Positions 5,464 through 30,031 of a DNA stretch of 31,789 nt are shown in pieces (position 1 is the first letter of the stretch; each line of letters starts with the position of its first letter). The notes beneath the pieces are model-generated. The model was not told the DNA's origin, ran no database searches, and worked only from the letters and a program-made list of their open reading frames with translations. Source of the stretch: a virus; IMG/VR virus record IMGVR_UViG_3300002138_000087, positions 1 to 31,789 of that record; one strand, written 5' to 3'. The position numbers and the translations under genes are program-made.

Positions 5464-5586
5464 TGGGCATGGCCGGACTCGAACCGGCACGGGTTTTAAG
5501 GCCCTGCAGATTTTGAACTGCGGATAAAACCCATCTTTATCCGCAGATGACGAAGTCTGCTGCGTCTTCCGTTTCGCCACATGCCC
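5464..5586 (-). tRNA. tRNA-Leu(CAA) with a 38-nt hairpin insertion in the anticodon arm
   Basis: The acceptor GGGCATG/CATGCCC is perfect. The D arm is GCG/CGC. A class II variable arm (GGG...CCC) and the T arm GCCGG-TTCGAGT-CCGGC are all sound. Between the 5' anticodon stem GCAGA and the loop TTCAAAA lie 38 extra bases (5518-5555). Removing exactly these restores a canonical arm GCAGA-TTCAAAA-TCTGC with anticodon CAA. The insert contains an 11-bp perfect hairpin (5518-5528 / 5536-5546). It is too short for a group I intron, so it is an unusual intervening sequence or a decayed tRNA. Confidence 0.8.
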
Positions 5587-14833: not shown

Positions 14834-15514
14834 TTGAATAAATCTCCAGACGAACGTTTTTTGATTGAATCTAAAAAACAAAATACTAATCTGGAAAAAT
14901 ACGGCGTAGAATATCCATCCACTTTACCAAATAATAGAAAAAAGTCAAAAATTAAAATGGTAAAGTTTTGGGAAAGTTTGAATGATGATGAAAGAACTGA
15001 TTTGATATTGAGTTTTCAACATGCGTGGACGGAAGAACGACGCAACGATAAAAGTCTTGATATGAAAGTGTTGTGGGCTTCTCTAACCGATGAGGAAAAA
15101 CAATTCCGGTTATCTCGGTTACATGCTGGAATAAAATCCACATCTTCACTAGAAACGAGAATTCAAAAAATATTCAATACGTGGAAATCATATTCATCAT
15201 TTGAGTATATACCACACTTTTATATTAAGTCAACAAATTACGATTTTTTGATAAACGAGTCGTTTATATTGGAAGTAAATGGTGATTACTGGCACGCAAA
15301 TCCAAAAATTTATAAATCAGATGATGTTTTTCAATTTTCATGGGGTCGAATGACCTCATCTGACATTTGGAATAAAGACGAAACAAAGCGAAAATTGGCC
15401 GTTGACAATAACTATAAAATTGGTTATATTTGGGAATCGGATATGAATAAGTTGTCCGACATTGATTTGGAGTCTCTTTTAATCGACATAATAAATGAAA
15501 ATTTCACTTGGTAA
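14834..15514 (+). CDS. Vsr-like PD-(D/E)XK homing endonuclease (226 aa)
   Basis: The C-terminal domain (about 105-226) has the layout of Vsr-type homing nucleases: SLETRIQKIF, YDFLINESFILEVNGDYWH, then DETKRKLAVDNNYKIGYIWE. The Glu-Val-Asn-Gly-Asp-Tyr-Trp-His block is the metal-binding core. The N-terminal half is a DNA-binding region (TNLEKYGVEYPS, LNDDERTDLI). The start used here is TTG 14834. The frame is open slightly further 5' without ATG, so the N-terminus may be truncated. Its end overlaps the RNA ligase start by 20 bp. AT-rich, hence likely acquired. Confidence 0.8.
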   Translation: MNKSPDERFLIESKKQNTNLEKYGVEYPSTLPNNRKKSKIKMVKFWESLNDDERTDLILSFQHAWTEERRNDKSLDMKVLWASLTDEEKQFRLSRLHAGIKSTSSLETRIQKIFNTWKSYSSFEYIPHFYIKSTNYDFLINESFILEVNGDYWHANPKIYKSDDVFQFSWGRMTSSDIWNKDETKRKLAVDNNYKIGYIWESDMNKLSDIDLESLLIDIINENFTW

Positions 15515-16580
15515 TATTGACCGAGAAATCTTCTATGTAAACGAACATGTTTTACATGGTGAGGTGATGTATTTGGTTACACCGAAACATATCGGTGTCA
15601 AGTGGACCAATGATAACAAAATTTTCCGATCAAGTCTTTGGAATTCTGATGGTGAGTTGGTTTCTGCATCATTTCCAAAATTTACGAATTGGGGAGAAAA
15701 TCCAGAAAATTTTCCTGTTCCAAATTCTCTAACCAATACCACAGTCATTGAGAAAATGGATGGAAGTTTGTTATGCATCTCGAAAAATCGTGGCCATTTC
15801 ATACTTCGTACCCGTGGAACGGTTGACGCAACCAAGTTGGACAATGGCGCAGAACTGGCTGCCTTTCAACCTATTCTGGATGATTTGAAGGAACGATACA
15901 ATTCAAACACTTGGGACTTCTCTCTGTTGTTTGAATGGTTGTCACCAACGAATGTTATCGTGATTAACTATGGTAATGAACCACTGTTTTCTTTGATTGG
16001 TTGCATTGACCATGATGATTACTCATTGACTCCACAATCTATCTTGGATTCTTGGGCTGCGGTCTGGAAGGTCGCACGGCCTCAGTCCTATACTTTCAAG
16101 TCAACCGAGGATTTGTTGTCTATGGTGGACTTGTGGAAGGGCAAAGAGGGTGTCTGCGTTTACTCCAAGAATCAACAAATGATTCATAAGGTGAAGTCCG
16201 CTGATTATCTTGTGAAGCATCGTTTCAAGTCAGAAGCTACGCTTGAAAACACTCTTGAGTTATATTTTCAATTAAATTGTCCAACCTATGTTGAGTTTGA
16301 AACCAAACTTGTGGAACTGTTTGATTGGGAATGTTTTGAGATGGTTCGTGGATACGCATCTTCTATTTGTGATGCGGCCAAACAGGTCAATCAAATAATC
16401 GCAGGAATTACTGCGTTTGTCGAGCCATTGAAGATAAAACCACGTAAAGATGCGGCCATAGCTATTACATCGTCTTACGGTGAAACAGGCAGAAGTGGCA
16501 TGGCATTTACATTGTTAGATTCAAAACCTCTAACAAATGACCAACATAAGAAATTGTTTTGGCAGGTTCTCAAGAAATAA
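15495..16580 (+). CDS. RNA ligase, T4 Rnl1-type nucleotidyltransferase (361 aa)
   Basis: All core motifs of covalent nucleotidyltransferases are visible. Motif I is EKMDGS with adenylated Lys87. A SFPKFTNWGE block precedes it, as in Rnl1. LLFEWLSP (about 144-151) is motif IIIa, KEGVCVY (217-223) motif IV, and HKVKS (231-235) motif V. The enzyme should join 3'-OH and 5'-phosphate RNA ends with ATP; in T4 it repairs tRNAs cut by host anticodon nucleases. That fits the tRNA cluster and the interrupted tRNA-Leu here. Translation may be coupled to the overlapping nuclease gene. Confidence 0.88.
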   Translation: MKISLGNIDREIFYVNEHVLHGEVMYLVTPKHIGVKWTNDNKIFRSSLWNSDGELVSASFPKFTNWGENPENFPVPNSLTNTTVIEKMDGSLLCISKNRGHFILRTRGTVDATKLDNGAELAAFQPILDDLKERYNSNTWDFSLLFEWLSPTNVIVINYGNEPLFSLIGCIDHDDYSLTPQSILDSWAAVWKVARPQSYTFKSTEDLLSMVDLWKGKEGVCVYSKNQQMIHKVKSADYLVKHRFKSEATLENTLELYFQLNCPTYVEFETKLVELFDWECFEMVRGYASSICDAAKQVNQIIAGITAFVEPLKIKPRKDAAIAITSSYGETGRSGMAFTLLDSKPLTNDQHKKLFWQVLKK

Positions 16581-18020: not shown

Positions 18021-18036
18021 TTGACTTTGTGTGAAC
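18021..18036 (+). promoter_or_regulatory. Promoter half left of the TnpB element
   Basis: TTGACT (18021-18026) with the usual spacing to the previous stop, but its -10 and gene are replaced by the TnpB element, which starts at about 18036. The gene remnant lies at 19355-19512. Confidence 0.55.
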
Positions 18037-19238
18037 TACCCACCCACAGCAAAGCTGATGGGATGGGCTTCGGAGGTCATAGACTCACCTAATGGTAACG
18101 CCTTACTCCGTTTTTGTTTTACATCCGAGTTAGTTCCTAAACCAGATAGTATTTTTAAACCTTGTTTTTTAATATTCACGCTTGCATTAAAATCTCTGTC
18201 GTGTACAGTATTACAACTTTTACAAGTCCATTCTCTATCTTTTAGAGTTAGGTCTTGATTTATGTAATTACAAACATTACAGGTTTTACTACTTGGAAAG
18301 AATCGGTCAATCTTAACAACCGTCTTATCGTTCCAATTAGCTTTATATTCAAGCATAGTGTAAAAAGTACCCAACGAAACATCAGAAAAGGCTTGTGCTA
18401 ATTTATGATTCTTCATCATATTTTTCACAGCTAAATCTTCAATACAAATTACATCGTGGTTTTTGATGATTTCTGTACTAACTTTATGCAAATAGTCTTT
18501 TCTGATATTGGTTACTTTTTCGTGTATTGTTGCAAGTTTTGATTTTTGTTTTAATCTGGAATTGCTTCCTTTTACTTTTTTAGATAATTGTCTTTGTTCA
18601 TATTTTAACTTCTTTAAGTTGGTTTTTAGTGTCTTTATGTTTTCATACACCTTACCATCTGAAAGTATAGCTAAATCCTTAATTCCCGTATCAATACCTA
18701 CCTTTGTGTTTGTTTTTTCAAATGGAATATATTCTACTTCACAAGTGATGCTTACATAATACTTTCCTGTTGTTGATTTTGATATTGTTGCAAAAAGAAG
18801 TTTGCCTTCAATTTCTCTATGTAAATTTATTTCAATACCTTTTTTGAATTTAGGTATCTGTAATTTACCATCTTCAATATACACCGATTGTGGTATTGTA
18901 AAACTTTGTTTGTCAAACTTGTTTTTAAATCTTGGAAATTTAGTTTGCTTTCTAAAAAACTTATTGTAAGCAGTATCTAAATTTCTAAGTGATGATTGTA
19001 AACTTTGAGAGTTAATTTCTTTAAGCCAAACAAACTGTTCATCTTTTTTCAGAACAGTCAAGTCATTTGCATTATCATAGTAATTGAGTGATTTCTTTTC
19101 TTCAAGATATGTTTCTTTTCTACTATTCAAGTAACGATTAAACACAAATCTACAAGCCCCAAAATGTTTTGCAAGCAATTCAATCTGCTCTTTGTCAGGA
19201 GTGATTCTAAACTTGTATGACTTATGTATTAACTTCAT
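18036..19238 (-). CDS. tnpB: TnpB (IS200/IS605-type RNA-guided nuclease)
   Basis: This 400-residue protein carries the full RuvC set: GIDTGIKDLA (Asp183), ICIEDLAVKNM (Glu267) and DRDFNAS (Asp349). A zinc finger (C320xxC323 ... C339xxC342) and an N-terminal helical domain (HKSYKFRITPDKEQIELL) complete it. TnpB proteins cut DNA with a guide RNA made from the element's right end. ATG 19238 begins the conserved KSYKFRI region; a longer frame to 19337 is not supported. No TnpA is present, so mobility would need help in trans. Confidence 0.93.
   Translation of the reverse strand: MKLIHKSYKFRITPDKEQIELLAKHFGACRFVFNRYLNSRKETYLEEKKSLNYYDNANDLTVLKKDEQFVWLKEINSQSLQSSLRNLDTAYNKFFRKQTKFPRFKNKFDKQSFTIPQSVYIEDGKLQIPKFKKGIEINLHREIEGKLLFATISKSTTGKYYVSITCEVEYIPFEKTNTKVGIDTGIKDLAILSDGKVYENIKTLKTNLKKLKYEQRQLSKKVKGSNSRLKQKSKLATIHEKVTNIRKDYLHKVSTEIIKNHDVICIEDLAVKNMMKNHKLAQAFSDVSLGTFYTMLEYKANWNDKTVVKIDRFFPSSKTCNVCNYINQDLTLKDREWTCKSCNTVHDRDFNASVNIKKQGLKILSGLGTNSDVKQKRSKALPLGESMTSEAHPISFAVGG
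18039..18067 (-). other. IS right-end hairpin with bulged bases (likely omega-RNA end)
   Basis: CCCACCCACAGC (18039-18050) pairs with GCTG-A-TGGG-A-TGGG (18054-18067), 12 pairs with two bulged A (T on the other strand). Imperfect hairpins with bulged bases are what TnpA recognises at IS200/IS605 ends; in TnpB systems this end also yields the guide RNA scaffold. Confidence 0.7.
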
Positions 19239-19292
19239 TCTAATATTAAATAGTCTAAACTTTTGTAAAATTACAATATTTTTTACAAATAC

Positions 19293-19348
19293 GCGATTTT
19301 TTTGTAAATATTTCCATCGAGTTTGAGAAACATTCACAAAAAAATCGC
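19293..19348. repeat. 13-bp perfect inverted repeat next to the TnpB element
   Basis: GCGATTTTTTTGT (19293-19305) and ACAAAAAAATCGC (19336-19348) with a 30-nt loop. It may be a bidirectional terminator or part of the element's left end. Confidence 0.65.
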
Positions 19349-24587: not shown

Positions 24588-24630
24588 AAACCTGTTGACA
24601 ACCTGAATATCTTTGATAACATGTTCCCAT

Positions 24631-24747
24631 ATGAAAGACCTACCTAAGTACATCAACGTTCGTGTGAAACGAATCATCACGGCAAAGTTTGGTGTAACTC
24701 TTTACCCTAACCGGGTTTATGAAGCCGAACGAGACGGGCCGAACTAA
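24631..24747 (+). CDS. Leaderless small protein ending RDGPN (38 aa)
   Basis: The promoter is TTGACA (24595-24600), 16 nt, TAACAT (24617-24622), with 8 nt to ATG 24631. The body is basic (KYINVRVKRIITAKFGVTLY), and the end ERDGPN-stop recurs at 29837-29872 in a shorter ORF with synonymous codon changes. The ORF 3' end is part of a structured RNA. It may be a leader peptide whose translation affects that RNA. Confidence 0.6.
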   Translation: MKDLPKYINVRVKRIITAKFGVTLYPNRVYEAERDGPN

Positions 24748-24867
24748 ACGGAAGCCCCGCCCACTCTACTAGGGAATGGGGGCACGGCCGAACAGGATGA
24801 GGCCATTCACCGAAGTCCGAGGTGGGTGGTAATGAAATGATGGGGAGAAAACCCCAGCAAATCTCGG
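24733..24867 (+). ncRNA. Repeated structured RNA, copy 1
   Basis: Four helices are visible: GGCC/GGCC (24737-24740 / 24801-24804), GCCCC/GGGGC (24754-24758 / 24779-24783), CACC/GGTG (24808-24811 / 24821-24824) and GGGG/CCCC (24842-24845 / 24852-24855). CCGAG (24817-24821) can also pair with CTCGG (24863-24867), forming a pseudoknot. Between helices, GGTAATGAAATGAT and AGCAAATCT are identical to copy 2 (29857-29992), while paired bases differ in compensatory ways. It ends just before a promoter. Family unknown. Confidence 0.7.
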
Positions 24868-24912
24868 CAAATCCCTTGACTTTTTATCAACTTTTGGTAG
24901 TCTATTTTCACA

Positions 24913-27248: not shown

Positions 27249-27332
27249 TTGACTACGGTTGAAGTGGTTATCTCCGATGACGATTTGAAACGTCTGGATG
27301 AAGTCGGAATTAAGTATAAAATCAAGTATTGA
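27249..27332 (+). CDS. Small ORF with TTG start (27 aa), uncertain
   Basis: TTG 27249 opens a coding-like frame (TTVEVVISDDDLKRLDEVGI) that ends at the TGA inside the next TTGACA. It could be a real small protein or the tail of a decayed gene. Upstream, 27158-27264 holds another start-less frame with protein-like composition (GVKIVSNLADNPSDNQIRKY). Confidence 0.4.
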   Translation: MTTVEVVISDDDLKRLDEVGIKYKIKY

Positions 27333-27366
27333 CAATCGGCGCAACTTAATATAATGTATTTACACA

Positions 27367-27711
27367 ATGAACACTATCACTTGCACAACGATTCGTGAGT
27401 TGAACTTCGCCAAGGCCGCAACTCCGGTGGTTATCCCCATGGGCACCACCATTCAACTCTACTTCAAGACAGAGAAGCCTGCTCGTGCTTATTTCATGCA
27501 CAACGGCATTGAACGTCCGTTGTCTGTGTCTCATCTTCACCTCACCGTCAAGAGTTCATCCGTCAAGTTTCGCAAGGCTCCGAGTCTCCGAGCCATGGAA
27601 AAGGCCAATGACGCTGGTGTTATGACAACGGTGACAGGTGCGAAGGTTGAACCGGATGGTCACGACGAATACGGTGCGGCCAGTTGGTTGTTGGTAATGG
27701 GATTGATTTAA
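27367..27711 (+). CDS. Conserved phage protein (114 aa), leaderless
   Basis: The promoter is TTGACA (27329-27334), 15 nt, consensus TATAAT (27350-27355), with 11 nt to ATG 27367. An N-terminal strand-rich part (PVVIPMGTTIQLYFKT) is followed by the block KAPSLRAMEKANDAGVMTTV, VEPDGHDEYGAASWLL. I recognise that block from a widespread phage family of unknown function that ends SWLLxxGLI. Confidence 0.85.
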   Translation: MNTITCTTIRELNFAKAATPVVIPMGTTIQLYFKTEKPARAYFMHNGIERPLSVSHLHLTVKSSSVKFRKAPSLRAMEKANDAGVMTTVTGAKVEPDGHDEYGAASWLLVMGLI

Positions 27712-27751
27712 TAGTTGACAATTCAACGACTTAATATAACCCGTTTTCACA

Positions 27752-27988
27752 ATGAACGAATACTTCGCCGTTAGCACCGAACAAATCGAAACTCTCATGA
27801 ATGAGACGTTGTGTAACTACTCTAATGCCAAGAACTTGAATGAAATGGGTGTATTTGGTGGAACGGCTCTTGGAATTATAACGGTGATTGTCAATATCCC
27901 CGGTTATCCACAAGCAAAGATTGATGAGTATCGTTTGCGCATCGAAGGTCTTAGTGACTTACTTCGTAACACAAACTTCCACTCTTGA
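27752..27988 (+). CDS. Hypothetical protein (78 aa), leaderless
   Basis: A promoter of the array type, TTGACA (27715-27720), has TATAAC at 27735-27740 (14-nt spacer) and 11 nt to ATG 27752. Helical N-terminus (STEQIETLMNETLCNYSNAK), hydrophobic middle (GTALGIITVIVNIP) and C-terminal helix. The hydrophobic part may be buried or membrane-associated. The stop TGA lies in the next TTGACA. Confidence 0.78.
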   Translation: MNEYFAVSTEQIETLMNETLCNYSNAKNLNEMGVFGGTALGIITVIVNIPGYPQAKIDEYRLRIEGLSDLLRNTNFHS

Positions 27989-28019
27989 CAACCGGCCCAT
28001 CGGTGTTATTTTAACTTTA

Positions 28020-28397
28020 ATGGATACAGAACCAACAAAACCAGTAGAACAACCAACCGAAATCAGTTACGAATCACAGGTTCGTAGAGATGCTCTGATG
28101 CTCGTCGCATTGGGGGCGATTCTTCATCGAGTAGTCGAGTTCGACGGCCAACCCAAAGATGAGGAACTACATATATTAACTCAAATAAGTGGTTATCTGA
28201 ATGGTCAGTTAGAGGATGACGATGATGAAGATGAAGATGAAGATGAAGTGGAAAGTGATGTGGAAACACTCAATATGGAGATTCACCAATTGCAACTTCA
28301 AGTAGCTAGGTTGGAGACATCTTTGGCTCAAGAACGGTTGGCAACAGAAAGAGAAAGAGAAAGAACAAGAGAAGCTGAGAAACGGTGGTGGAAGTAA
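28020..28397 (+). CDS. Acidic coiled-coil protein (125 aa), leaderless
   Basis: The promoter is TTGACA (27985-27990), 16 nt, TATTTT (28007-28012), with 7 nt to ATG 28020. A helical region (VRRDALMLVALGAILHRVVE) and an acidic run (EDDDDEDEDEDEVESD) lead into a long heptad-type helix (LNMEIHQLQLQVARLETSL) that ends very basic. The layout suggests an oligomer with a charged hinge. Role unknown. Confidence 0.78.
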   Translation: MDTEPTKPVEQPTEISYESQVRRDALMLVALGAILHRVVEFDGQPKDEELHILTQISGYLNGQLEDDDDEDEDEDEVESDVETLNMEIHQLQLQVARLETSLAQERLATERERERTREAEKRWWK

Positions 28398-29799: not shown

Positions 29800-29836
29800 T
29801 TGTTGACAATTGTATAATAACTGGTAAATTAATTAT

Positions 29837-29872
29837 ATGAAACTAAGAAACGCTCGTGACGGTCCTAACTGA
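29837..29872 (+). CDS. Leaderless 11-aa peptide ending RDGPN
   Basis: The promoter is TTGACA (29803-29808), 16 nt, TAAATT (29825-29830), with 6 nt to ATG 29837. The peptide MKLRNARDGPN has the same last five residues as the 38-aa protein at 24631, with different third bases, and is followed by copy 2 of the structured RNA. Confidence 0.5.
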   Translation: MKLRNARDGPN

Positions 29873-29992
29873 ACGGAAACTCCCATCACCCTGTTAGTGA
29901 GGGAGTAACGCCGAACGTGAGCAGGGACTACTCGTTGAAATCCAAGACGAGTGGTAATGAAATGATAGGGAGAAAACCCTAGCAAATCTTGG
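29857..29992 (+). ncRNA. Repeated structured RNA, copy 2
   Basis: The same plan as 24733-24867 is seen. The pairs are GTCC/GGAC (29862-29865 / 29925-29928), ACTCCC/GGGAGT (29879-29884 / 29901-29906), ACTCGT/ACGAGT (29930-29935 / 29947-29952) and AGGG/CCCT (29967-29970 / 29977-29980), plus the pseudoknot pairing CCAAG (29942-29946) with CTTGG (29988-29992). Unpaired GGTAATGAAATGAT and AGCAAATCT are unchanged. It ends 2 nt before the next promoter. Confidence 0.7.
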
Positions 29993-30031
29993 TATTGACT
30001 TTTTATAAATGTTTGGTAATCTATTTTCAAT

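Follow-up and report, generated by a model that had tools for sequence, protein, structure and literature searches.

Two Diverged Copies of One Element

Why does this T4-like environmental phage carry, at two sites, a stretch of DNA with the look of one structured RNA, and what might that RNA do? The window, by which we mean the whole virus record of 31,789 bases, contains copy 1 of the element at 24730..24867 and copy 2 at 29855..29992 (both on the + strand), as delimited by alignment and examined by pair counts and null models. An earlier note on this DNA had described two copies sharing the blocks GGTAATGAAATGAT and AGCAAATCT, and copies, ends, and blocks all lie where it placed them. The alignable range extends from CG(A/T)GACGG to CT(C/T)GG, and 38 of about 139 positions (27%) differ between the copies. 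The element is very likely a real two-copy structured RNA of no known family that is fused to the conserved end of a mini-ORF.

A relative in IMG/VR (L001/G001, 80 kb) is 98–99.95% identical to the record in the blocks compared and contains both elements unchanged. Because the copies differ by 27% and the strains are identical within the element, its duplication or independent acquisition is ancient compared with the divergence of the strains. Between the elements, a stretch of about 0.9 kb (27257-28383) is absent or replaced in this relative. The major capsid, portal, and baseplate genes of L001/G001 are T4-like, and the closest named relatives of the capsid are those of Microcystis phage Mel-JY01 and the Flavobacterium immuto phages (approximately 52%).

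Several other features of the window deserve mention in their own right. A perfect 15-bp tandem repeat of 7.6 copies occupies the end of the record (1-114), and one of its frames reads (NEDEY)n. At 5464-5586 on the - strand lies a phage tRNA gene of Leu-like type (Rfam tRNA, 44.6 bits) whose anticodon loop is enlarged by approximately 37 nucleotides, including the long perfect hairpin CTGCGGATAAA/TTTATCCGCAG; the extra segment resembles either a tRNA intron of very small size or an insertion that inactivates the gene. A T4-type RNA ligase is encoded at 15495-16580. A TnpB/OrfB gene of the IS605 type with a Cas12f1-like zinc domain is located at 18036-19337 on the - strand, and its end, GTGGGTGGGTAGTTCAC, resembles the end of a guide RNA. 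We rejected TnpB guide RNA (reRNA), in which a scaffold at the 3' end of tnpB precedes the guide, as an identity for the elements, as the phage tnpB ends in the unrelated GTAGTTCAC, the elements are far off, and the bases following them differ in register.

Covariation and the Shared Fold

The structured part of the element is approximately 120 nt long and comprises three hairpins and a pseudoknot, namely hairpin P2, hairpin P3, a pseudoknot in which the P3 loop pairs with the 3' end, and the small hairpin P4 enclosed by the pseudoknot. Counting the helices that both copies can form, the fold occupies alignment columns 28-32/53-57 (P2), 78-87/97-106 (P3), 117-121/128-132 (P4), and 93-96/140-143 (pseudoknot); the pseudoknot can gain one further pair in competition with P3. 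On the + strand of copy 1, P2 lies at 24754-24758/24779-24783, P3 at 24802-24811/24821-24830, P4 at 24841-24845/24852-24856, and the pseudoknot at 24817-24821/24863-24867. The corresponding + strand positions in copy 2 are 29879-29883/29902-29906 for P2, 29927-29936/29946-29955 for P3, 29966-29970/29977-29981 for P4, and 29942-29946/29988-29992 for the pseudoknot.

All 24 pairs are retained in both copies, six of them with changes on both sides and five with a change on one side. P3, a hairpin of 10 bp, shows consistent changes on both sides of two pairs and on one side of five, and P2, which is GCCCC/GGGGC in copy 1 and ACTCC/GGAGT in copy 2, has two double changes and is among the best supported helices. 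The helices listed in the earlier note fared unequally: its pseudoknot (CCGAG/CTCGG versus CCAAG/CTTGG) and its hairpin GGGG/CCCC versus AGGG/CCCT are borne out, each with one pair changed on both sides, but GGCC/GGCC versus GTCC/GGAC needs a register shift of one base, competes with P3, and was dropped, as its pairing probability is 0.00 in both copies, and P2 had been overlooked. With the helix partners slid by 1-3 columns, pairing is only 30-52% and 0-2 double changes remain.

When substitutions of the same kind were placed at random, all pairs were retained in 4 of 20,000 trials and six double changes arose in none of 20,000; this test is optimistic because its fixed structure was chosen using both rows. 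Under a null model in which the helices were rediscovered each time, the observed values for pairs kept and double changes were reached in 9 and 3 of 400 trials, respectively, and in a column-permutation null they were reached in 1 and 0 of 500. Because column shuffles have little power with two rows only, we relied on the substitution and permutation nulls, which agree that the covariation is above chance, although two sequences are few and the structure was selected using these same two. Within the domain of the pseudoknot, changes affect 13 of 39 paired columns and 1 of 27 unpaired columns (Fisher p = 0.005), and such avoidance of unpaired positions is typical of RNA with functional loops. 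Folding of the single strands gave an unremarkable z of -1.7 for copy 1 and a moderately strong z of -2.7 for copy 2. The fold is thus very probably real, as judged from covariation between one independent pair of sequences, in keeping with the selected fold that had been proposed from the two copies: every pair is kept, six change doubly, and the nulls rarely match this.

The Element Begins inside a Mini-ORF

The earlier note had placed each element between a tiny ORF and a promoter. The promoter does follow, but the ORF is more than a neighbor: in both copies the 5' end of the element is the last six codons of a mini-ORF, stop included. The mini-ORF of copy 1 (24631..24747, +) has 38 codons and TAA, encodes MKDLPKYINVRVKRIITAKFGVTLYPNRVYEAERDGPN-TAA, and ends in ERDGPN-stop; that of copy 2 (29837..29872, +) has 11 codons and reads MKLRNARDGPN-TGA. 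Both assignments are based on translation and promoter geometry. Both products terminate in Arg-Asp-Gly-Pro-Asn-stop, encoded at 24730-24747 and 29855-29872 (+), and the spacer ACGGAA follows at 24748-24753 and 29873-29878 (+), so that 6 nt separate the stop codon, and 12 nt the Pro codon, from the start of P2 in either copy. The four nucleotide differences within the RDGPN-stop stretch are all silent or stop-to-stop, an outcome reached in 0.05% of random-substitution trials (p ~5e-4). Past the stop, identity is 6 of 9 residues, which is not significant (p = 0.10), and coding constraint is thus visible only up to the stop codon. Because coding is conserved across the ORF end and stop, we regard the mini-ORFs as part of the element, which is probably partly coding; constraint on the RNA could account for part of the codon conservation. 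R-x-[GP]-P does not occur elsewhere in the 31,563 residues of the phage's longer ATG frames, and no hydrophobic signal is visible in the sequence of the 11- and 38-codon ORFs.

In a promoter survey covering positions 4437-31789 of the window on both strands, approximately 40 genes were preceded by TTGACW-N16/17-TANNNT, their ATG lying 6-9 nt past the -10 box. Both mini-ORFs have this usual geometry: the promoter of copy 1 (24595..24622, +) is TTGACA-N16-TAACAT with the ATG 8 nt on, and that of copy 2 (29803..29830, +) is TTGACA-N16-TAAATT with the ATG 6 nt on. This geometry puts the start of transcription at the ATG, from which we infer leaderless mRNAs, and most genes between 4437 and 31789 seem to be served by a promoter of their own and to have leaderless mRNAs. 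The same survey identified the promoters of the genes after the elements, at 24876..24903 (+), 8 nt past copy 1 (ATG 24913), and at 29995..30022 (+), 2 nt past copy 2 (ATG 30032). These two genes encode short acidic phage proteins without a Pfam match, and we found no recognizable likeness between them. An interrupted longer gene was set aside, as there is no coding continuation between element and next promoter.

Searches for Homologs

A search of both copies against the Rfam 15 covariance models gave only chance-level matches (E up to 10), so that the family is as unrecognized as had been supposed. The fold recalls the preQ1-II riboswitch, an HLout pseudoknot in which a hairpin loop pairs with the 3' strand and an extra hairpin occupies the last loop, burying the Shine-Dalgarno sequence of the gene that follows; in contrast to preQ1-II, the 3' strand here (CTCGG/CTTGG) is not a Shine-Dalgarno sequence, there is an additional P2 domain, and the Rfam match is absent. 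Exact and degenerate patterns over IMG/VR retrieved nothing beyond the near-identical strain L001, and no homolog was found by pattern search over GTDB contigs or by blastn against PLSDB; blastn against INPHARED gave only a 29-base chance match. The earlier note had suggested building a covariance model from both copies. The resulting model, R1, identified no additional member among the phage sequences scanned, so that the proposal falls short on the homolog part of the test set for it in that note: no homolog was detected in 45 related contigs of T4-like phages and 1.19 Mb of retrieved DNA, at the pattern loci, or in Microcystis, Flavobacterium, and Rhodothermus phages and two uncultured phages, and the weak R1 matches shown among those phages lacked P2/P3 pairing or were terminator-like. 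An intergenic structured stretch of another viral contig (L196:4290-4560) reads AACGGAA-[9-bp UUCG hairpin]-GUGCCGAAC and has a terminator-like hairpin at its end. It was rejected as a chance resemblance, as R1 gives it only 5.4 bits and it shares two motif blocks with the element here but little else, the rest being unalignable; judged from its acidic proteins, L196 is perhaps a haloarchaeal virus.

Neighboring genes used as probes in IMG/VR did not identify another phage, and one related contig (L168) has a partial relative of the gene after copy 2 without an element upstream. Because the neighboring genes are nearly as restricted in distribution as the element, its absence elsewhere may reflect sparse sampling of a fast-changing region of the phage.

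Possible Functions

As a tentative best guess, the mini-ORF and the fold would have an arrest-coupled function. Each copy would be a self-contained mini-gene, in which a phage promoter produces a leaderless mRNA with a short ORF running into a compact fold, and the shared C-terminal Arg-Asp-Gly-Pro would act as an arrest module of the RAPP/SecM type, stopping the ribosome when Gly occupies the P site and Pro the A site. The usual toeprint distance is approximately 16 nt from the P-site codon. Assuming this distance, Gly in the P site would put the ribosome front at alignment column 25-26, and P2 starts at 28; with the ribosome at the stop codon, the front would be at column 31-32, within P2. 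The front edge of an arrested ribosome would thus lie 1-3 nt short of P2 and leave the fold intact, and a ribosome reaching the stop codon would melt P2. The state of translation would then set the RNA structure, the outcome being either a stable RNA capped by a ribosome or a switch that affects its own transcript. Leaderless transcription, translation, arrest, and a downstream effect are all steps that we infer. It is a doubtful, though specific, proposition that an arrest motif in a leaderless mini-ORF parks the ribosome at the edge of a pseudoknotted RNA, position and fold making one unit, and it is just as speculative that such a phage-encoded unit of ribosome and RNA serves as a ribosome-capped RNA or a sensor of translation.

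The arrest ORFs of the RAPP/SecM-like kind (SecM, ApdA, ApdP, ApcA, and the RQH family) are similarly short, with a near-terminal R-x-G-P followed by mRNA structure, and both copies have a C-terminal RAPP-like motif, RDGPN-stop, with constrained codons. The critical residues of SecM are the Arg and Pro of R-A-G-P (PMC10951299), and RDGP is listed, in the sections of PMC10987492 on candidate arrest uORFs, among the motifs that recur at their C-termini, where it is a search motif and not a proven arrest. Unlike those ORFs, the candidate arrest ORFs here are leaderless phage mini-ORFs of 11 or 38 codons without a signal sequence, have no secA/secDF/yidC downstream, and precede a fold that is a pseudoknotted domain. 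The same sections of PMC10987492 report that RAPP-like motifs alone often fail to stall and need upstream residues, and that most RAPP-like sequences from other proteins gave no stall, yet the residues upstream of RDGP differ between the copies, only six preceding it in copy 2, and this argues against arrest. Modeled ribosome occupancy favored P2 in copy 1 and not consistently in copy 2, and no conserved two-state switch or alternative fold emerged under modeled occupancy, the folds being inconsistent between the two copies. With a separate promoter in front of the next gene, a target in cis is not obvious.

A free-standing RNA, trans-acting or a scaffold and possibly a protein-binding decoy, ranks close behind arrest-coupled function and is a conceivable account in which the ORFs would be incidental or a minor second function. 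An own promoter, a compact fold, invariant joining segments, and the presence of two copies all suit such an RNA, but it leaves aside that RDGPN-stop has changed only silently, no terminator or processing signal was recognized at the 3' end, and there is no known target or protein. Rather unlikely is a riboswitch-like or attenuator leader for the next gene, carried on a read-through transcript from the upstream promoter. The element is directly 5' of a gene in both copies, and a short leader ORF with structure is the usual layout of a regulator; against this, the promoter of the next gene begins 2-8 nt past the element, the two next genes have no recognizable likeness, and the fold contains neither a terminator nor a Shine-Dalgarno sequence.

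We consider it unlikely that the element acts in cis by binding RNA polymerase and suppressing pausing or termination, as HK022 put RNA does through the zinc-binding domain of the enzyme. Like putL and putR, which PMC9378689 describes in its passages on these sites, the elements are two similar, diverged structured RNAs shortly 3' of phage promoters, and a long same-direction gene array lies downstream. However, the put RNAs of those passages are approximately 70 nt long, V-shaped, and composed of two stem-loops with no pseudoknot described, whereas the element is twice as long, has a different fold, and overlaps an ORF, and its polymerase binding would be putative. The region has 11 terminator-like sites versus 10.7 expected, a chance-level number, so that there is little visible need for antitermination, and conservation of the stop codon would go unexplained.

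Programmed recoding, by read-through or frameshifting stimulated by P2, is very improbable: recoding stimulators typically sit at a spacing like the 6 nt between stop and P2, but the post-stop identity (6 of 9 residues, p = 0.10) is not significant, the read-through frames end differently (30 versus 11 codons), and the stop is UAA in copy 1 but UGA in copy 2. A self-cleaving ribozyme is equally improbable, as its general look (size, compact pseudoknot, invariant A-rich joining segments) is accompanied by no match to ribozyme families at E up to 10 and by a helix order that we take to differ from that of HDV-like ribozymes, which were set aside on this ground; nothing positive favors the ribozyme or the decoy that the earlier note had floated.

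Implications

Few structured RNAs are known from phages, and most of them lack an explanation. In the present case, a covariation-backed fold, now including P2, is attached to a conserved peptide C-terminus resembling known ribosome-arrest motifs, and the start of the element inside the tiny ORF is, like P2, new relative to the earlier note. The pair of elements may represent an unrecognized translation-coupled RNA device, and if the link is true, this would be a case of nascent-chain arrest employed by a phage, outside the Sec/YidC regulators known so far.
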